Source: Verrucomicrobiota bacterium
GTDB taxonomy: Bacteria > Verrucomicrobiota > Kiritimatiellia > RFP12 > UBA1067
Direction of reading: 5' to 3'
Length of the DNA: 32,793 nucleotides
Assembly: GCA_016288465.1 (NCBI GenBank)
Contig: JAEEZC010000058.1
Location: forward strand, 1 to 32,793
Both the position numbers and the translations under genes were made by a program. The notes under the pieces were generated by a model. That model was not told the origin of the DNA. It did no database searches and saw nothing but the letters and a program-made list of their open reading frames with translations. Below, one piece after another: positions 9,878 through 25,386 of the stretch; within the stretch, counting starts at the first letter, position 1; every line of letters begins with the position of its first letter.

Positions 9878-10034
9878 CCTGAGCCTGCGGCCCTTTTGCC
9901 GCAATACGCCATAACCTGTTGGGAAGGGGGCGTCGCGCATAAGTGTCTGTCGCAGCCGCCGCCATGCGACCTTCGCCCGCAAGACGGTTGTCTTGTACTG
10001 CATTTTCACTTTGCCCATTTTCCTGTTCATTTCG

Positions 10035-10144
10035 TTTTCTGGTTGTTTCTCGGATTTCTGTCAGTTGACAAAAAGATTTTTGTCAGTTGACGGAAGATGT
10101 TCTGCCGGTTGGCAAAATTTCGTCTGACGGCTGCTGCTTCGGGC
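10035..10144. repeat. Degenerate 22-bp tandem array (4-5 units)
   Basis: Units at 10035, 10057, 10079, 10101, 10123: ttttctggttgtttctcggatt / tctgtcagttgacaaaaagatt / tttgtcagttgacggaagatgt / tctgccggttggcaaaatttcg / tctgacggctgctgcttcgggc. Confidence 0.6.
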
Positions 10145-10210
10145 TTTCGCTGAATGATAAACTCCGGGCGGTGTGGCTCTCGCGCAGACGCTTGCGTGCC
10201 CTGCGTAAAC

Positions 10211-10363
10211 CTATGAGGGCGGCTTTGATCTTAACTCAGATGGGTCCCCATCGGCTTTCACGCGGCTGAAGTCGTGGCACGCCTTCGCCTCGTCTCGAAT
10301 CTTCTGCGTCTCGAACGCCGCGTCAACCCGCTCATTGAACTGCTTCTTCGTCTTGATTTTCAT
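10211..10363 (-). CDS. Possible 50-aa basic small protein
   Basis: MKIKTKKQFNERVDAAFETQKIRDEAKACHDFSRVKADGDPSELRSKPPS with AAAGGAAG RBS; no homology test possible. Confidence 0.3.
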   Translation of the reverse strand: MKIKTKKQFNERVDAAFETQKIRDEAKACHDFSRVKADGDPSELRSKPPS

Positions 10364-10588
10364 GGTCTTGCTTCCTTTCTTTCGTTTGTTGCGAAAATGG
10401 CGGGGATCGGGCGAATCTCTCCGCCACACATCCTCGTACGAGGGGCGGAGCCAGCCAGCCTCTCCGTATATGTTAGTTACATGAGAGGCGAAATTTTTCA
10501 CCGACGGCGGAAGATTTTTCCAATATTCACAATTCACAAGGGGGCACTTACACTCTTGAGAAAAACCATGTGTTCGTGAGTGAAGATT

Positions 10589-10677
10589 GTGAAGATTGGA
10601 AATGTGTGTGTTGTATGTGCGTAAAAGGCGAAAGAACCTTTCGATTCTTTTGCCTTTTCTCGCTTTCCAATCTTCAC
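10589..10677. repeat. Nested inverted repeats
   Basis: Outer arms GTGAAGATTGGAAA (10589-10602) / TTTCCAATCTTCAC (10664-10677), perfect 14 bp; inner arms AAAAGGCGAAAGAA (10623-10636) / TTCTTTTGCCTTTT (10645-10658), 13/14. Confidence 0.75.
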
Positions 10678-10720
10678 AAACTCATGTGAGGATAGCGTTA
10701 AGATTGTGAAGGCATCGTAT

Positions 10721-10815
10721 AGTCCTTTCGCAAATGTATAACGTCCGGGGCTGATGAAATGATATAATCAAGGCGAATGCAAAGGAGGTGTTCCATGATG
10801 ATCACAGAAAAGCTC
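10721..10815 (+). repeat. Promoter/leader cassette copy A (95 bp)
   Basis: 87/95 identical to 14411-14505; contains TGATATAAT, AAAGGAGGTG and ATGATGATCACAGAAAAGCTC. Confidence 0.9.
10760..10768 (+). promoter_or_regulatory. Extended -10 promoter TGATATAAT (cassette A)
   Basis: Followed by AAAGGAGGTG and ATGATG. Confidence 0.7.
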
Positions 10816-10826
10816 TGGGTGGGGGG

Positions 10827-12455
10827 ATGGAAGTGTCAGTCGTGATTGGAATGATAGCGGCCGTGGCCATGGCCGCCAGCGCGGCGGAAGACGTTTCTGT
10901 GCCTGTCCGACCAGGCTGTTCCGGCCGGGGAGTCCCTTTCTGGAACGCACACGCGGCGTTCTTTCGCTATGCGCCGTCGTTCGACTTCAAGGCCGTGCCG
11001 AAGGCCGTGCGATACAGGTTCTCGCTGAAGGGCGGGGGCGCCGGGGAGTCCTTCGAGGCTGATTCGCCCGAGGCGCCGCTTTCTCCGGTCTGGAAGCGGA
11101 TGGCGAACGCGCAGTGGACGGTTGTCTGCGAGGGGATCGGCGCGGACGGGGCGGTTGTCGGCAAGGCGGGCGAGCGGTCGTTCGTGAAGACCGCGCCATA
11201 TGCCGGCGGCTGCGCTCCGGCCGCCCGGCCGTACCGCGAGGCGGCGAGGCGAATCTACGAGTACATGACGTCCCTTCCGGCGATGAAGACGCTTGTCGAG
11301 ACCGGCGTGCCCGAGCAGAACTACCAGCACAACGCCTATCCGTCGAAGACCCATGCGGCGCACATCAAGGCGATGCTGGGATGGGCGAAGGCCGATCCGC
11401 AGAACCGCGACAAGGCGATGCGCTTCGCCCGTGCGTCGGGCGAATACCTTCTCTCGCAGCTGGAGCCTGCCGACGCGCCGCTCGCCTTCTGGCCGCCGAC
11501 CTACGGGCGCAAGCCGCTGGAGTACGACACCAGGACCGACGGCGGGAAGATGCGCGAGTCTATGGTCGGCAACGATCCTGCAGGCGCGGCGAGATATCGC
11601 GGGCAGGTGATGTCGCTTTACCCGGCGGACGTCGGGTCGCAGTTCGTCGCGCTTGCCGAAGCGACAGGCGAGAAGAAGTATCTTGAAGCCGCCAGGGGCA
11701 TTGGCGAGACATATCTCAGGATTCGCCGCGCCGACGGCACGTGGGCGCTCAAGTACTGGCTGGCGACGGGCGAAGTGCAGTGCCCGAATCCGCTCGTGCC
11801 GACGAGGCCGATGGCGTTCTTCGAGCGGCTTGCCGAGGCGACGGGCGACGAGAGGTGGCGCAAGGCAGCGGACGAATGCTTCGCCTGGCTTGAAAATGGG
11901 CCGCTTGCGGACTGGAACTGGGACGGGCAGTTCGAGGACATAGAGCCCCGTCCGCCATATCAGGACCTGACGGAGCACAACGCCATAGAGACGATGCTGC
12001 ATCTCCTCGGGCGGCGTGCGGACGACCCGGCGGCGTGCAGGCAGGCGCGGGAACTGCTGCGCTGGAGCGAAGACCAGTTCGTGTTCTGGGAAGCTCCGTG
12101 CCGGGCCGAAGAAAAGGTGCCTTGCGCAGGGAGCGGCAGGCCGTTCGCCCCGGGCAAGTGGCACTATCCGTCCGTCTTCGAACAGTACAGCTGCTACATC
12201 GCGATAGATGCATCTGCCTCGAAGATGATAGCCGCCTACCTCGCCATGCACGGAGCGGAGGGGAATCCGCTCGATCTGGCGAAGGCGCGGGCGCTCGCGG
12301 ACGCCATCACGCAGATGCAGGAGCCGTCTGGCCGCGTTCCGACATTCTGGGCCGAGAAGGACAATTGGCTTTCGGGCGTTCGCTACGACTGGCTGAACTG
12401 CATGGCGTCGTGCGCGGCTGCGCTTTTGGAGCTGGCGGCCGTTTCCATTGAATAG
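10827..12455 (+). CDS. Secreted (alpha/alpha)-toroid protein, putative glycosidase/lyase-like
   Basis: Signal-like MEVSVVIGMIAAVAMAASAAED; toroid-like repeats (YPSKTHAAHIKAMLGWAK, YPADVGSQFVALAEATGEKKYLEAARGI, RPMAFFERLAEATGDERWRKAADEC). Start uncertain because of the frame break in the leader. Confidence 0.6.
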   Translation: MEVSVVIGMIAAVAMAASAAEDVSVPVRPGCSGRGVPFWNAHAAFFRYAPSFDFKAVPKAVRYRFSLKGGGAGESFEADSPEAPLSPVWKRMANAQWTVVCEGIGADGAVVGKAGERSFVKTAPYAGGCAPAARPYREAARRIYEYMTSLPAMKTLVETGVPEQNYQHNAYPSKTHAAHIKAMLGWAKADPQNRDKAMRFARASGEYLLSQLEPADAPLAFWPPTYGRKPLEYDTRTDGGKMRESMVGNDPAGAARYRGQVMSLYPADVGSQFVALAEATGEKKYLEAARGIGETYLRIRRADGTWALKYWLATGEVQCPNPLVPTRPMAFFERLAEATGDERWRKAADECFAWLENGPLADWNWDGQFEDIEPRPPYQDLTEHNAIETMLHLLGRRADDPAACRQARELLRWSEDQFVFWEAPCRAEEKVPCAGSGRPFAPGKWHYPSVFEQYSCYIAIDASASKMIAAYLAMHGAEGNPLDLAKARALADAITQMQEPSGRVPTFWAEKDNWLSGVRYDWLNCMASCAAALLELAAVSIE

Positions 12456-12468
12456 GGCTCCATCTTTA

Positions 12469-12477
12469 TGATATAAT
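12469..12477 (+). promoter_or_regulatory. Extended -10 promoter TGATATAAT
   Basis: 9 nt before TTG 12487. Confidence 0.6.
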
Positions 12478-12486
12478 GGCGCCGTT

Positions 12487-13185
12487 TTGGGTGAGAAGCA
12501 CAAAGACAGTCCTTCGGAGAATCCTTTCCTCATAGGATTGGCGTCGGCAAAGGCTAACCTTCTGCCGATGATTTTGCTGTGGCTGATGGCGTTTGCGACG
12601 GCGCTGTCCTACTATTTTGTGCCGGGTTTCGCCCAGATGCTTGAGCCTGTGCGGAGATGGCAGTGCGAATACGGCGCACTGGCGGCCTTTGCGACGCAGG
12701 CCTTCTTCTGCGGCATGTTTCCCGCCATCTTTCTTCTCACGGTGAAGTCGATACGCCCAAAACATCCATGGATCAAGGTGGCGGCGCAGACTGTCTGGTG
12801 CGGATCGTGGGGAATCGTGTACCTGTGGTTCTATGCGTTCCAGTTCCGGATGTTCGGCGATGGACCGGAGATCTCGGCGCTGGTCTGCAAGATGCTGTTC
12901 GACCAGTTCGCATGGACGCCGTTTGTCGTCATGCCTCTGAGTTCGTCTTTCTTCCTCTGGCTGGGCTGCGACTTCTCGTTTCAGGCGGCGTTCGGCAAAT
13001 GCCGTGAAGGTTTTGTGAGAAGGATAATCCTTCCCAATCTCGTCTCTAGCTGGTGCGTGTGGATTCCGGCCGTGATCGCGGTCTATGCGTTCCCCGTCTC
13101 GCTTCAGGTTCAGATGCTCGGATTCGTCTCGTCCTTCTGGACGTTGATGTGCCTGCAAATCGGCAAGAGGGTTGCCGATGGGTGA
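12487..13185 (+). CDS. Mpv17/PMP22-like integral membrane protein
   Basis: 232 aa (TTG start), about 4 TMs; KMLFDQFAWTPFVVMPL and NLVSSWCVWIPAVIAVYAFPVSLQVQMLGFVSSFWTLMCL resemble Mpv17-family DQ..xAP and xxVWPxxQxxNFxxVPxxxR...WN patterns. Confidence 0.5.
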   Translation: MGEKHKDSPSENPFLIGLASAKANLLPMILLWLMAFATALSYYFVPGFAQMLEPVRRWQCEYGALAAFATQAFFCGMFPAIFLLTVKSIRPKHPWIKVAAQTVWCGSWGIVYLWFYAFQFRMFGDGPEISALVCKMLFDQFAWTPFVVMPLSSSFFLWLGCDFSFQAAFGKCREGFVRRIILPNLVSSWCVWIPAVIAVYAFPVSLQVQMLGFVSSFWTLMCLQIGKRVADG

Positions 13186-14338
13186 TTCCGACACCATCCT
13201 CTACGTCGACATGTGGAAGGGTGAGCGAATCCAGGAGATGAAGCTTGCCGGCATCCGTCGGTATGCCGCGATGCGCGGGTGGAACGTCGACGTGCTTTCC
13301 GAAGACGAGTCGCGTCCGGGCAGGCTTAGGCCTGCCTTGGGCAGACTCGAGCCGGTAGGCGTTATCGTCGAGGCGGCCGCCGCGCACAGAGACCTCCCGC
13401 CTCGCTTCTTCCGCAAGATTCCCGTGGTGTATCTCGACTGTGCGCGAAGCCTCTACGGAGGCCGCATGCCGAAGGTCGTCCACGATGGAGAGGCGACGAC
13501 GCGCGTTGCGTTTCGCGAGCTTTCGTCAAACCGTCCGCAGGCCTACGCAGTCGTCGGCTACCGGGAGCGCCGCTTCTGGTCGGACATACGCGAAAGGGAG
13601 TTTCGCTCCCTTGTGCGGGAAACCGGCAGGAAGTGCATCGCTTTCGCAAGGCGCGACGAGTCTGCCGAGCCCCGGGCAAAGCGGCTTGTCTCGTGGATCG
13701 GGCGCCTTCCGCCGAAGACCGCGGTGTTCGCGGTGAATGACGACACCGCCGCAGAGGTCGTTGCCGCGTGCCGGGAGTGCCGGAAGGGCATCCCCGCAGA
13801 CATGACGCTTCTGGGCGTAGACAATCTGGCGAGCGTGTGCGAGAACGGCGAGACGCACATATCGAGTGTCCAGGTGGATTTCGAGCGGGCGGGGTATTCT
13901 GCCGCGAAGATGCTGGACGACGTGATGTCAGGAAGAGCGGTTCGTCCCGTCGAAGACCGCTTTGGCCCGATGATGGTCGTGCGCCGCGAGTCGACGCGCG
14001 GCTTCGGGCGGTTCGAGCAGCGGATACTGCCGGTCGTGGAGCTGATCCGCCGCGAGGCGTGCAACGGGCTTACGGCGCGCGAGGCGATGAAGGGCATAAA
14101 TGGGTCGCGCCGCCTTTTCGAGATGCGATTTCGCGAGGCGATGGGGCATTCGGTGCTTGACGAGATCCTGAGTGTGCGCCTGGAGCGGGTCTGCCATCTG
14201 CTTTCCCGCACGGAAACGCCCATAGGCGCGATAGCCGCCTTCTGCGGATTCAAGAGCGACATTGCGCTTTCAAAGCTCTTCCGCCGCCGTTTCGGAGCGT
14301 CGCTCCTCGCCTGGCGCAGGCAGAACCGCAGCATATAG
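13178..14338 (+). CDS. XylR-type transcriptional regulator (LacI-like sensor + AraC HTH)
   Basis: Periplasmic-binding-like N-terminus; C-terminal AraC HTH (RLERVCHLLSRTETPIGAIAAFCGFKSDIALSKLFRRRFGASLLAWR); ATG overlaps upstream stop. Confidence 0.85.
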   Translation: MGDSDTILYVDMWKGERIQEMKLAGIRRYAAMRGWNVDVLSEDESRPGRLRPALGRLEPVGVIVEAAAAHRDLPPRFFRKIPVVYLDCARSLYGGRMPKVVHDGEATTRVAFRELSSNRPQAYAVVGYRERRFWSDIREREFRSLVRETGRKCIAFARRDESAEPRAKRLVSWIGRLPPKTAVFAVNDDTAAEVVAACRECRKGIPADMTLLGVDNLASVCENGETHISSVQVDFERAGYSAAKMLDDVMSGRAVRPVEDRFGPMMVVRRESTRGFGRFEQRILPVVELIRREACNGLTAREAMKGINGSRRLFEMRFREAMGHSVLDEILSVRLERVCHLLSRTETPIGAIAAFCGFKSDIALSKLFRRRFGASLLAWRRQNRSI

Positions 14339-14410
14339 CCGATCGGTGCCGGTGCGCTCGATTCTCCTTTGCCGGGATTCGCCTGCGCCCAAGGCCAGGC
14401 CGATGCCGTC

Positions 14411-14505
14411 AGTTCTTTCGCAAATGTATAACGTTTGCGGCTGAGAAAATGATATAATCAAGGCAGATGCAAAGGAGGTGTTCCATGATGATCACAGAAA
14501 AGCTC
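14411..14505 (+). repeat. Promoter/leader cassette copy B (95 bp)
   Basis: See 10721-10815; offset exactly 3690 bp. Confidence 0.9.
14450..14458 (+). promoter_or_regulatory. Extended -10 promoter TGATATAAT (cassette B)
   Basis: Followed by AAAGGAGGTG and ATG 14485. Confidence 0.75.
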
Positions 14506-16923
14506 AGTGCGGTTGCGTGCGCGGCGACGATGTTCGCGACGGGCGCGGCGGTTGCCGCGGCGTCATCCTCGATCACTGTTGCCGACATCAGCTCCGGCCG
14601 CAACGCCTATTCTACCAACGGCAAGTGGACCGGCGGCGTCTCGCCAGCGAACGATTCGTCGAGGAACTACGACTTCGTCATCGCGAACGGCTACGACGTG
14701 TTCCTTCCCGACAACAGTGTCGCGCTCACGTTCGGCGGCAACTCGGTCCAGTTCGGCGCATCTGACTTCTCGAGCGCGGGGACGCTCTACATCAAGGGCA
14801 ACAACCGCTGGGTCACGTTCCCCGATCTGCGCCTCTACAAGGGGCTTTTCAGCCCGGCGCAGAACGGATCGGTGGGATTCGCCGGCAACGCCTCCGTCTT
14901 CTCCACGGCGGAAGACCCGTTCAATTTCCTGATGAGACTCGACTACGATTCCTACTTCAACCTCGTCTTCACCGGCGGCGACACTAGCGCCGTCAAGTTT
15001 TCGGGGGCCTATACGAAGAAGTGCCCAATCTTCCTCTACGCGGACCAGTCGGCTACCTACTCTGGTTCGTGGATCGTCGGCGAGAATGTCGAGCTTCGGC
15101 CGTCCTACAATACAAGCTACGGCTCCATCAGAACCTCGGCGCAGGCATTCGGCAAGGCTCCTGCGACGTTCAATCCGAAGGGAGTCGTTCTGCAGTCCGG
15201 TGCCACGCTTCGCTACGAGGCGGCAGGCAGGGCGTTCCTCGCGTCCGACAACCGCGGCCTCTGGCTTGATGCGGAAGGTTCTTCGGCCACATACGTCCTC
15301 ATCAACGGCGCCAACCATGTGTTTGGCTGGCCGATTGGCGGCGCCGGGACGTTCCAGCTGATCGGAAGCGGCACCTTCTATTTGAGCTCGGAATGCGCGG
15401 TGCCGCTTTCCGTGACGCAGCTTGTGTCGCTCCATCTGGTCTCCGGCGCGTCCGTCACGAACGGCCTCTCCAGCGTGAATCCGGTTGCCGCAACCATAAC
15501 CATATCGGCCGACGGCACCTCCTCGACGCCCATTCGCATTGGCGGTACGTTCGACGTGCCGGGCCCGATTGCCGTCGCCCTCTCGCAGATCCCTTCCGTC
15601 TCCGCGACGACGGACATTCCCGTCTTCGTAATCGACAGCTCATCCGCCAACCAGTTCACCGAGGCGGATTTCGACCCATGGGGCGTTGCCGGGGCACAGA
15701 CGGCCAACGCCGATTCGATCGTCTTCTCGACCGACGGCAACGGCGACACGGTAGTTTCCGTGCGAGTCTTCCCGTTCGCCCGCTCCAACGCCTCGGCCGG
15801 CGCAATTGTCACGATGGACAACTCCGGACAGTGGACGCCCGCCGGCATTCCCTCGGCGTCCGGGAACTACATTGTCTGGAACAACAACCTGCGCACCGGC
15901 GGCGCCGACCTGCAGAACCCCTACAACGTGCAAGGCGGCCGGTTCGTCCTCTTCAACCCGTCCGGCGCGACCTACTACGACTACCAGAGCAAGCACTACG
16001 GCACGGTGTTCCCGTTCCTCCGCCTACTCGACGATACCGGATTCGTGCCGGCGCATAGCAGGGCTGACATGACACTGGCGCTTGGCGGGTGGGTGGATGT
16101 CCGCACGTCGCGCTCAAAATACGCCAGACTGTGCGCAAACGCCACCAACATGCGGCTGGACGCGACGCTTTCCGGGCGCGGCAACCTGCTGCTGTTCCCC
16201 TACAATGGACTCTACCTCGAAATGGCAGGCGACGCCTCGGCTTTCACCGGTCGCGTGATCGTCTCCAACTACATAAACGCCGTCACATCGACGCTCAAGG
16301 CATCGTCCGAAGCCAACTTCGGCGGGAATCCCGAAACCTTCTCGGCGGACGCGTGGCAGCTCTGCGCGAACGTGACGTTCGCGCCGACGGCCGATATCGT
16401 CTTCGACGACGCCAACCGCGGCGTCACGCTTGCAGGCGGTTCTTCCGTCGATACGACTTCGGGCGACTTCACGGTCAAGACGCCCATCGTGATTGCGGGA
16501 GCTTTCGCAAAGAACGGCACAGGAACTTTTGCCTATGGCGAAGGCGGCGCAACGGCAAATGGCGCGGCGATTTCGGTGAACGGAGGTGCTCTCAAGGTCC
16601 AGCATGCCGATGCGCTGAAAGGCGCGTCCGTCTCGTTTGCCGACGGCGCGATGCTTGCGCTGGGCGTCGGGCCGAACAGCCCGGTCGTCGACCTTTCCGC
16701 GACCGCGCTTTCCAAGGCCGGCGCGAAATACCTTGTGCGCATCGACCGCGCCGCCAGCGACAGCGGAGTGCGTCCTGTCATGACATTCGCGGACGCGGCG
16801 GCGGCATCGGCGTTCGTGGCAAACGCGAAAACCGTGACGGGGACAGGATCAAAAGGGGCTCTCGTAGCAGACGGAGCCGTCGTGAAGTCCGCGATTCCTG
16901 GCTTTGTCCTGTTCGTGCGATAG
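14485..16923 (+). CDS. Large secreted beta-rich protein (autotransporter-associated-repeat-like), two related modules
   Basis: ATG 14485 after AAAGGAGGTG; signal peptide MMITEKLSAVACAATMFATGAAVAAASS; Gly/Ala/Thr/Ser-rich beta-strand repeats. Confidence 0.6.
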   Translation: MMITEKLSAVACAATMFATGAAVAAASSSITVADISSGRNAYSTNGKWTGGVSPANDSSRNYDFVIANGYDVFLPDNSVALTFGGNSVQFGASDFSSAGTLYIKGNNRWVTFPDLRLYKGLFSPAQNGSVGFAGNASVFSTAEDPFNFLMRLDYDSYFNLVFTGGDTSAVKFSGAYTKKCPIFLYADQSATYSGSWIVGENVELRPSYNTSYGSIRTSAQAFGKAPATFNPKGVVLQSGATLRYEAAGRAFLASDNRGLWLDAEGSSATYVLINGANHVFGWPIGGAGTFQLIGSGTFYLSSECAVPLSVTQLVSLHLVSGASVTNGLSSVNPVAATITISADGTSSTPIRIGGTFDVPGPIAVALSQIPSVSATTDIPVFVIDSSSANQFTEADFDPWGVAGAQTANADSIVFSTDGNGDTVVSVRVFPFARSNASAGAIVTMDNSGQWTPAGIPSASGNYIVWNNNLRTGGADLQNPYNVQGGRFVLFNPSGATYYDYQSKHYGTVFPFLRLLDDTGFVPAHSRADMTLALGGWVDVRTSRSKYARLCANATNMRLDATLSGRGNLLLFPYNGLYLEMAGDASAFTGRVIVSNYINAVTSTLKASSEANFGGNPETFSADAWQLCANVTFAPTADIVFDDANRGVTLAGGSSVDTTSGDFTVKTPIVIAGAFAKNGTGTFAYGEGGATANGAAISVNGGALKVQHADALKGASVSFADGAMLALGVGPNSPVVDLSATALSKAGAKYLVRIDRAASDSGVRPVMTFADAAAASAFVANAKTVTGTGSKGALVADGAVVKSAIPGFVLFVR

Positions 16924-21602: not shown

Positions 21603-22667
21603 CTATTGCTGGCGCCACGCCCGCGGCGTCATCCCCGTCTCGCGCTTGAACACGTTGTTCAGGTGGGACGGGGAGCAGAAGCCGCACTTCTCGGCGATCT
21701 GCATCGCCGTCAGCTCGGAGTTCCTGAGCAGCGTCTTGACATGCGCGAGGCGCTGCCTCAGTATCTCCTCGCCTATCGGACGGCCCAGCGTCGCGGAGAA
21801 CAGCTTGTCGATGCGCGAGCGGCTCACGCCGACGTGTTCGGCCACCTGCGCCGCGCCTATCGAACGGGAGAGGTTCGAGCGGATGAACAGCACCGCGGCG
21901 CGCACCGTCGGGTCGTCCACCGCCAGAGTGTCGGTGGATTTGCGCGTGACGATGCACTTCGGCGGGATGATCGTGTGTCGGCTTGCAGGGGCGCGCCCCT
22001 CCATCATCTCGTAGAGGACCGCTGCCGCGACGTATCCGCCGCGTTCGAGGTCCTGGTCGATCGACGAGACGGGGATCGGCTGCAGCTCGGACAGCACCGG
22101 GTCGTTCCCTATCGACAGTATCGAGATCTCCTCCGGAACGGCGATGCCGAGCGCGAGGCATTTGCGCATAAGGCACGCCGCGTCGGTTTCGTCGTACGTC
22201 AGCACGGCAAGCGGCCTGCGGACGCGCTCGACGGGCGCCTCGCCCACCCATTTCGCGGCCGGACGCTCTTCCGTGAAGCCCTTGAAGCGAAGGGCGTGCA
22301 CGTGCCCCCATCCGCTTGAGAACCATGCGCGGCTGGTGAAGTGGTGGCGCTCGAAGTGCTCGGCGGCGAGCCTGCCGATCATGACGTGGTCGCTGGTAAC
22401 GCGCACGACGTCCATCCTCGGCATCTCGCACGTAAGGTCGACGACCGGCACGCCGCGCTTCAGAAGCCGGCGTACGTTCGCCACGATCGGCGAGCCGGTT
22501 CTGACGGTCGCAATCGCCCCGTCAGTCTTCCAGCCGGGTATTTCGGCGCGCTGCCGGTCCTTGACGAGAAGGTTCCAGCCGTGCTCCTTGGCAAACTTCG
22601 CGATTCCCTGCAGGCGAGGCTGGCTCACCGGCGAAAGCATCACGAGAACGTCTTTGCGATTCTCCAT
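21603..22667 (-). CDS. XylR-type transcriptional regulator (LacI-like sensor + AraC HTH)
   Basis: MENRKDVLVMLSPVSQPRLQGIAKFAKEHGW; C-terminal HTH AMQIAEKCGFCSPSHLNNVFKRETGMTPRAWR. Start moved from 22826 to 22667. Confidence 0.87.
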   Translation of the reverse strand: MENRKDVLVMLSPVSQPRLQGIAKFAKEHGWNLLVKDRQRAEIPGWKTDGAIATVRTGSPIVANVRRLLKRGVPVVDLTCEMPRMDVVRVTSDHVMIGRLAAEHFERHHFTSRAWFSSGWGHVHALRFKGFTEERPAAKWVGEAPVERVRRPLAVLTYDETDAACLMRKCLALGIAVPEEISILSIGNDPVLSELQPIPVSSIDQDLERGGYVAAAVLYEMMEGRAPASRHTIIPPKCIVTRKSTDTLAVDDPTVRAAVLFIRSNLSRSIGAAQVAEHVGVSRSRIDKLFSATLGRPIGEEILRQRLAHVKTLLRNSELTAMQIAEKCGFCSPSHLNNVFKRETGMTPRAWRQQ

Positions 22668-22674
22668 GGGCGCA

Positions 22675-22683
22675 AGTATACCA
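22675..22683 (-). promoter_or_regulatory. Extended -10 promoter TGGTATACT (regulator 21603-22667)
   Basis: Minus strand, 7 nt before ATG 22667. Confidence 0.65.
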
Positions 22684-22717
22684 CAAGCGCGGCATGCGGC
22701 GCAACGGAGTTGGCTGG

Positions 22718-22755
22718 TGCAATTTTTCGCGGAAAAAATGCAATTGCTCGCGGAA
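22718..22755. promoter_or_regulatory. Candidate AraC/XylR operator: 17-bp direct repeat, 21-bp period
   Basis: TGCAATTTTTCGCGGAA (22718-22734) and TGCAATTGCTCGCGGAA (22739-22755), 15/17 identical, in the divergent regulator/dehydrogenase intergenic region. Confidence 0.65.
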
Positions 22756-22824
22756 CCCGCATATGCTATCATAATCGCGGATTCAGCAAAGTCCACACAC
22801 GAAAACCAATCGAGGAGCAAGAAC

Positions 22825-24201
22825 ATGAGGGCAAAGGCATGGAGACTTTACGGCGCCAGGGACGCAAGGCTTGAGGACATCGAACTTGAGTCGGCGGGCG
22901 AGGAGGGCATCGTCGTCGAGCTCGTCACCAACACCATCTGCCTCAGCGACTACAAGGGAGCGACGCTGGGCACCGGGCACAAGCGCGTGCCGCGCGACAT
23001 CGCGACGCGTCCGACGATGTTCGGCCACGAGGTCGCCGGCATCGTGCGCGAGGTGGGCGAGAAGTGGAAGGGCCAGTTCCGCGTCGGCCAGCACGTCGGC
23101 CTACAGCCTTCCCTCAACATCCCCGGCCACGAGCTCGAGACTGTCGGCTACGCATGGCACACGATTGGCGGCGAGACGACGCACGTGTATCTGCCGTCCA
23201 TCGTGATGGAGATGGGCTGCCTTCTGCCTTACGACGGGGACGCGTTCTTCAAGTGCTCGCTCGCGGAGCCGATCTCGTGCATCGTCTCGGCGTTCCGCAC
23301 CAACTACCACAACGCGTTCTGCTCGCACGACCTCGAAGTCGGCATCGTGGACAAGGGAACGATGCTTCTCATGGCCGGCTGCGGCGCGATGGGGCTCGGC
23401 TGCATCGACATCGCCTGCCACTCGCCCGAGAAGCGTCCGCGCCGCCTTGTCGTGACCGACATCGACGACGTCCGCCTCTCTCGCGCGGCCCGCATGTTCG
23501 GCCTCGCCTACGTTGACGGACGCGCCGACGGCGATGTGAACGGCGTGGACGTGCACTTCGTCAACACCGGGAAGATGGCCGATCCCGTCAGGGAGCTGAA
23601 GGCGTACAACCTGGTGGACGACGCGCGCGCCGACAATCCGACGTCGACCGGTGGCGGCTACGACGACATCTTCCTCATGGCCGCTGTTCCCGCGCTGATC
23701 ACGCAGTGCTCCGACCTTCTAGGCTTCGGCGGATGCCTCAACTTCTTCGCGGGCCCGACCGACCAGCATCTCATGGCGTCGTTCAACTTCTACAACGTCC
23801 ACTACATGATGCACCATGTTGTCGCCAACTCCGGCGGAGACGTGAAGGACATGGCCGACTCGGTGGACTGGATCGGCAGAGGGTATCTCCATCCCGAGGT
23901 GATGATAACGCACGTCGGCGGGCTCGACTCTGCCGCCCAGGCGACGTTCGACATGCTCAAGGTGCCCGGCGGCAAGCGCCTCGTCTACACGCACGTCAAC
24001 ATGCCGATGACGGCTATCGACGACTTCGCCGAGAAGGGCAGGAGCGATCCGTTCTATGCGGAGCTCGACCGCATCTGCTCCGCGAACAACGGGCTCTGGT
24101 GCAAGGAGGCCGAGGAATACCTTCTCGCCCACGCTCCCAAGGTCGAGATCGGCGAGCCGAAGGAGCTCGTGAAGGAGCGCATCATCCGGCTCGGCTCGTG
24201 A
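22825..24201 (+). CDS. Zinc-type MDR alcohol/polyol dehydrogenase (L-sorbose-1-phosphate reductase-like)
   Basis: CLSDYKGATLGTGHKRV, FGHEVAGIVREVG, MLLMAGCGAMGLGCIDIA; GAGGAG RBS; 458 aa. Confidence 0.7.
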   Translation: MRAKAWRLYGARDARLEDIELESAGEEGIVVELVTNTICLSDYKGATLGTGHKRVPRDIATRPTMFGHEVAGIVREVGEKWKGQFRVGQHVGLQPSLNIPGHELETVGYAWHTIGGETTHVYLPSIVMEMGCLLPYDGDAFFKCSLAEPISCIVSAFRTNYHNAFCSHDLEVGIVDKGTMLLMAGCGAMGLGCIDIACHSPEKRPRRLVVTDIDDVRLSRAARMFGLAYVDGRADGDVNGVDVHFVNTGKMADPVRELKAYNLVDDARADNPTSTGGGYDDIFLMAAVPALITQCSDLLGFGGCLNFFAGPTDQHLMASFNFYNVHYMMHHVVANSGGDVKDMADSVDWIGRGYLHPEVMITHVGGLDSAAQATFDMLKVPGGKRLVYTHVNMPMTAIDDFAEKGRSDPFYAELDRICSANNGLWCKEAEEYLLAHAPKVEIGEPKELVKERIIRLGS

Positions 24202-24219: not shown

Positions 24220-25350
24220 TCAGCCGACGTCGGCTTTGGCGGACTGCCTGGCGCGCCATTTTCTCGGCGACATGCCCGTTTCCCTGTGGAAGAGGTTCGT
24301 CAGGTATGCGGCGTTGCAGAAGCCGCATGCCGACGCAATCGCCTTCAGCGGCAGGGTCCTGTCCATGATCAGCCGCTTCACCCTCAGCATGCGCTGACGC
24401 AGAATCTCGTCGCCGACCGAGCGGTGCAACTCGGTAGCGAAGAGCGCGTCGAGCCGGCGGCGCGTTATGCCGATTCCGGCGGCGACCTCGCGAGCCCCGA
24501 ACGCCCCGCCGAGATGCGAGTGGATGTAGACCATCGCCGCCCTTACCTTCGGGTTGGAGTGCGCCAGCGTGTCGGACGAGTCGCGCGCCACAATCGCTCC
24601 AGGAGGCATCATGACCGGCTTGGCCGAGAACGCCGCCTTCCTGCGCGAGGGCGGCATCGACATGAGCTTTTCGAGCCGCGCAGCCGCGGCGTATGCGGCG
24701 TCGGACAGGTTCTGGTCAACGCTGGAGATGGTGGTCTCCTGGTTCTCGGACAGGATCGGATCGTTTCCGACGCCTACGATGGAAACCTCCATCGGCACCG
24801 AGACGCCCGCCGATCTGCACGAGAACACGAGACGGGCCGCGTCCGGTTCGTTGTAGGCGAACACGGCGACCGGCTTCGGCGTTGACGCAAGATCCTTCAA
24901 GACAGTCTTTGCGTGCCATTTGGCGGGACGGGTGCCTTCGGGAAGGGCGCTTCTGAAGCCTTCGTAGCGCAGCTCGTGCACGTGCGACCAGCTTGCAGAG
25001 AACCATGCGAAGTTGTCGAAGCCTCTCTCCATGAAGTGCCGCGCCGCCGCCGCTCCGATTGCGCGATGGTCCGACACGACCCGCGGCATCTGCACGTCCG
25101 GACGCTCGATGGTCAGGTCGACGACCGGAATGGCGTCGGCGAGAATCCTGCGGGCGGTCTTCACCATCTGCGGCTTGTCCCTCAGAGTCATGAGAATGCC
25201 GTCGAATCCCGTCAGGCTGTCGTAGTCTTCGAGACGGTCTGCGAACACAAGGCTCCAGCGATGCTCCTTTGCGAATTTCGCAATGCCGTTCATTCTGGGC
25301 TGGCTGTACGGCGAAATCATCACCAGCACATATCTTGACTCGGTTCTCAT
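24220..25350 (-). CDS. XylR-type transcriptional regulator (LacI-like sensor + AraC HTH)
   Basis: MRTESRYVLVMISPYSQPRMNGIAKFAKEHRW; HTH LPLKAIASACGFCNAAYLTNLFHRETGMSPRKWR. Start moved from 25386 to 25350. Confidence 0.87.
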   Translation of the reverse strand: MRTESRYVLVMISPYSQPRMNGIAKFAKEHRWSLVFADRLEDYDSLTGFDGILMTLRDKPQMVKTARRILADAIPVVDLTIERPDVQMPRVVSDHRAIGAAAARHFMERGFDNFAWFSASWSHVHELRYEGFRSALPEGTRPAKWHAKTVLKDLASTPKPVAVFAYNEPDAARLVFSCRSAGVSVPMEVSIVGVGNDPILSENQETTISSVDQNLSDAAYAAAARLEKLMSMPPSRRKAAFSAKPVMMPPGAIVARDSSDTLAHSNPKVRAAMVYIHSHLGGAFGAREVAAGIGITRRRLDALFATELHRSVGDEILRQRMLRVKRLIMDRTLPLKAIASACGFCNAAYLTNLFHRETGMSPRKWRARQSAKADVG

Positions 25351-25357
25351 TGGCCCA

Positions 25358-25386
25358 ATTATCTTAAAAATATCACTTGAAGTCAA
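25358..25386 (-). promoter_or_regulatory. Sigma70-type promoter for the 24220-25350 regulator
   Basis: Minus strand TTGACT-17 nt-GATAAT, 7 nt from ATG. Confidence 0.65.

Follow-up and report, generated by a model that had tools for sequence, protein, structure and literature searches.

Three described systems stand closest to the locus reported here. Class II activators of the AraC family bind sites that lie across the -35 box and take its place (PMC10268841), and the capture of promoters by tandem duplication or deletion has been documented in bacteria (PMC11111574). The third is E. coli XylR, in which a LacI-like sensor is joined to an AraC helix-turn-helix (HTH).

The 32,793-nucleotide stretch of Verrucomicrobiota DNA that we analysed (the window; features lie on the forward strand unless marked) encodes a regulator of the XylR architecture, XylR1, at 13178–14338. 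It has both a LacI-type, periplasmic-binding-protein-like sugar sensor (Peripla_BP_3, PF13377, E = 3e-25) and a C-terminal AraC HTH (HTH_18, PF12833, E = 4e-14). A 95-bp segment occurs once directly behind this gene and a second time 3690 bp upstream, each time ahead of a probable exported protein. From sequence comparison, we consider it probable (roughly 0.72) that the upstream copy records a promoter capture, in which the promoter of the downstream gene (gene B) was copied in front of a second gene (gene A) and recruited it to XylR1 control.

Structure of the repeated segment

The two copies lie at 10721–10815 (copy A) and 14411–14505 (copy B), and alignment confirms the initial annotation in its count of 87 identical positions out of 95 without gaps and in its spacing. 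The flanks of the copies are unrelated on either side, which rules out gene duplication as the source of the repeat and supports the earlier description of a promoter, ribosome-binding site and start segment duplicated before unrelated, probably exported proteins. The identical stretch reported earlier is also present, although the longest exact block, at the 3′ side of the repeat, measures 39 bp and not 35. As the longest exact repeat in order-3 Markov versions of the window is at most 19 bp, the repeat is real and far beyond chance.

The putative XylR operator TTTCGCAAATGTATAAC occupies 10726–10742 in copy A and, in identical form, 14416–14432 in copy B. An extended -10 element, TGATATAAT, begins 17 nt past it in both copies (10760–10768 and 14450–14458), and a Shine-Dalgarno sequence, AAAGGAGG, can be read at 10781–10788 and 14471–14478. 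A -35 hexamer is absent upstream of the extended -10 in copy B, where the 17-nt spacing falls on AACGTT, which matches TTGACA at 0 of 6 positions. All eight mismatches between the copies (copy A positions 10724, 10745, 10746, 10748, 10755, 10756, 10775 and 10776) lie outside the operator, -10, Shine-Dalgarno sequence and ATG; with a p-value that is itself modest (p = 0.016), this placement hints modestly at selection on the two copies.

Upstream of copy A, the region 10025–10389 is made up of dispersed repeats in a mosaic arrangement. About 20 partial copies occur in the same genome, several of them near contig ends, and the region includes tandem 22-nt units with GTCAGTTGAC. An imperfect inverted repeat at 10584–10682, with 19-nt arms 61 nt apart (AGATTGTGAAGATTGGAAA and TTTCCAATCTTCACAAACT), sits in AT-rich sequence shortly before copy A. 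Elsewhere in the window, two more XylR-type regulators (21603–22826 and 24220–25386, minus) flank a dehydrogenase-like gene. No Rfam element was matched in the window.

A putative operator behind XylR-type genes

We scanned 162 genomes of the order for the pattern TTTCGCAAAnGTATAAC-N17-TGATAyAAT, allowing up to three mismatches. Exact matches were returned at copies A and B and on contig C33 of G112, a genome from another genus, where the site lies directly 3′ of an XylR1 orthologue (66% identical) and agrees with the window's operator at 16 of 17 positions. A genome from another family, G138, has one site with three mismatches (contig C180), just 3′ of a XylR gene (44%). Across the 162 genomes, the pattern with its spacing is confined to the neighbourhoods of XylR1-type genes and to copy A, and the reversed pattern used as a control gave 0 matches.

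The G112 locus preserves more than the promoter. Behind its XylR gene stand TTTCGCAAAAGTATAAC, then 17 nt, then TGATACAAT and a gene for an exported protein, and ahead of it is an orthologue (68% identical) of the Mpv17/PMP22-like membrane protein that precedes XylR1 in the window (12487–13185; PF04117 at E = 7e-4, which falls short of the curated cut-off). The whole Mpv17–XylR–promoter order is common to the window and G112 only, and a scan of genome contigs for near relatives of the Mpv17-like protein gave only relatives at 45–49%. An exported protein also follows the G138 site, and the downstream exported protein differs from genome to genome; gene B and its positional counterpart in G112 gave no significant match and so show no homology. 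Since the downstream genes are unrelated, the element follows the regulator. Mpv17/PMP22-like genes were also seen beside XylR-type regulators in several genomes, at 12487–13185 in the window and at six further loci.

Within the XylR1 clade, TTTCGCAAAA with one mismatch or none follows the stop codon of the regulator within 150 nt at 18 of 44 loci, against 0.18 loci expected by shuffling; not every member of the clade has the element. As controls at the same loci, the element was found upstream of the regulator in none and on the opposite strand in two. The best extended -10 falls 33–34 nt from the operator start in 15 of the 18 loci (46 offsets tried). When the window and G138 loci, which had been found through the pattern or the repeat, are excluded, the counts become 16 of 42 loci with the element and 13 of 16 with this offset. 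In distant XylR paralogues with a diverged HTH, a related element, TTCGCAAATGGAGATA, occurs upstream of their own genes. We also considered a palindromic operator (CGCAAA...TTTGCG in copy B) and rejected it, as the right arm is missing in copy A and in G112.

The promoter layout resembles that of AraC-type class II activation, with the candidate site overlapping the -35 position at a fixed distance from the -10. We propose that gene B is natively transcribed from copy B, and that XylR1, from the adjacent gene, would bind the 17-bp element TTTCGCAAAnGTATAAC in place of the missing -35 box and from there bring RNA polymerase to the extended -10 by class II activation. A transcription start about 7 nt past the -10 would put the operator at about -49 to -33, and XylR1 binding to either promoter would depend on TTTCGCAAA. 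Sugar binding by XylR1 could then trigger activation of both promoters, and its HTH may bind further sites. We infer XylR1 binding, activation, the co-expression of genes A and B and the mechanism of duplication from the sequences themselves.

Origin of copy A

Gene B (14485–16923) encodes a predicted exported, repeat-rich, autotransporter-like protein with matches of 34–43% in other genera. Its signal peptide starts MMITEKL and is in frame with copy B, so for this gene the earlier claim that the repeat extends through the first seven codons stands; the copied start codons are in frame in copy B only. Copy B also sits at the conserved position behind XylR, as judged from the repeat alignment and the cross-genome comparison, and copy A, the second-best match in its own genome, lies elsewhere. 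In G112, gene A is absent from the position before Mpv17. A paralogue of gene A on contig C364 of the same genome (78% identical) is without the copied promoter: DNA similarity between the two begins right after the signal peptide, and the region upstream is unrelated. Given the conserved position of copy B and the unrelated promoter of the gene A paralogue, copy A most likely derives from copy B, which would be ancestral. We suggest that a local duplication set the 95-bp copy, which includes the ribosome site and first codons of gene B, immediately ahead of gene A, and that gene A would thereby have joined gene B under XylR1 control.

Copy A could be the remnant of a larger tandem duplication, from gene A to promoter B, whose first set of genes was then lost. 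The geometry fits, and tandem duplication is a documented route to promoter capture (PMC11111574); however, traces of XylR1 or gene A were looked for upstream of copy A and none were found, which leaves this history a tentative one, with the odds somewhat against it. It is a possible route for the capture and no alternative to it.

Gene A and its translation start

Gene A (10827–12455) probably encodes an exported enzyme. It has no match in Pfam or NCBIfam, but a profile of 11 of its relatives matches the GH76 mannanase 4v1r (E = 1.4e-4), and its predicted structure (pLDDT 81.6) yields Foldseek matches to GH76 and sugar 2-epimerase toroids with E-values down to 1e-9. The product is thus likely an (alpha/alpha)6-toroid carbohydrate enzyme of the GH76 or sugar 2-epimerase fold.

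For this toroid gene the claim of shared first codons fails, as those of copy A are out of frame with it. They open (ATG ATG ATC ACA GAA AAG CTC, from 10795) a 16-codon leader reading frame, MMITEKLWVGGWKCQS, which stops at 10845 and overlaps the start of gene A at 10827. As assembled, the start codons of copy A do not serve gene A, so that its translation is uncertain; it perhaps starts at 10827 by coupling to the leader. The two frames are separated by a run of six Gs at 10821–10826, and a seventh G, whether the run reflects an assembly error or is phase-variable, would fuse MMITEKL to the signal peptide of gene A. The 32 nt from the ATG at 10795 to that at 10827 are one base short of in-frame, and gene A's own start provides no basic residue in the n-region of its signal peptide, both of which speak for a fusion. 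However, the assembly reads six Gs, and six is short for phase variation, and we regard the fusion as unlikely.

Mobility of the segment

The 3595 bp between the copies (gene A, Mpv17 and XylR1) might instead be inserted DNA that is able to excise, bounded by a 95-bp duplication. Direct repeats at both ends and the dispersed repeats upstream of copy A would suit such a block. It contains no recombinase, however, and the Mpv17–XylR–promoter unit is old and common to another genus, so that most of the block was not newly inserted before gene B. To our knowledge, known elements do not typically produce target duplications as long as 95 bp, which also counts against this account, and we consider it very unlikely. 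Excision by recombination between the copies, as proposed earlier, is possible in principle.

The initial annotation had further seen in the segment a portable expression cassette. A search of the window's own genome (3.52 Mb in 393 contigs, 82.6% complete, with about 17% missing) found no third copy of the 35-bp core with up to three mismatches; a 106-bp BLAST query likewise returned the two known copies and nothing further. The exact 35-mer was not found in 85,462 GTDB species genomes, a set that may leave out the window's own genome. Although the copies stand ahead of different proteins, both of them probably exported, the two genomic copies, the lack of the exact core in other GTDB genomes, and the fact that other genomes share the operator and -10 alone, without ribosome-binding site or codons, make a promoter, ribosome-binding site and signal module copied repeatedly ahead of exported proteins highly improbable. 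In the genome as assembled, the repeat is a two-copy local event and no mobile cassette spread through the genome.

Discussion

Promoter capture is in itself an ordinary type of event, and the evidence on what was captured, a regulator-linked promoter, is unusually good here. The locus offers a concrete case of a gene recruited to a regulon via promoter copying. Of greater interest is what it exposes along the way, a recurrent XylR–operator–exported-protein layout in an uncultured Kiritimatiellae-like order with dozens of such regulators per genome. With this layout, the specificity of operators and regulators can be predicted from sequence and tested with reporters. We found no description of it in the searched literature, and no work on XylR or AraC-type regulators in Kiritimatiellae/Kiritimatiellota, Verrucomicrobia or Lentisphaerae came up in searches.

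XylR-type regulators appear greatly expanded in five genomes, including G138, with about 100–140 candidates per genome at first look. Many of these genes are followed by TTTCGCAAAA-like operators and exported-protein genes. It is conceivable, though we lean slightly against it, that the expanded clade forms modules of one regulator and one exported protein across the order, each with a short operator that immediately follows the regulator and keeps a fixed distance to an extended -10. The operator would then be a constant address and the cargo freely swapped, and the 95-bp copy would be a module acquiring a second cargo.

XylR1 shares its domain architecture with E. coli XylR but differs in operator and targets, and its gene lies 5′ of a gene for an exported protein, whereas E. 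coli XylR is associated with xylose genes. Like the class II promoters of the AraC/MarA family, those of the window combine a forward-oriented site over the -35 position with a good -10 and no -35 hexamer (PMC10268841); they differ in the recognition sequence, and here the start site and the binding are deduced from sequence. The event itself resembles the described captures in that a local rearrangement has duplicated a promoter before another gene (PMC11111574); it differs in that the intermediate is not seen, that the captured promoter is a regulated one and includes its operator, and that the lineage is uncultured.
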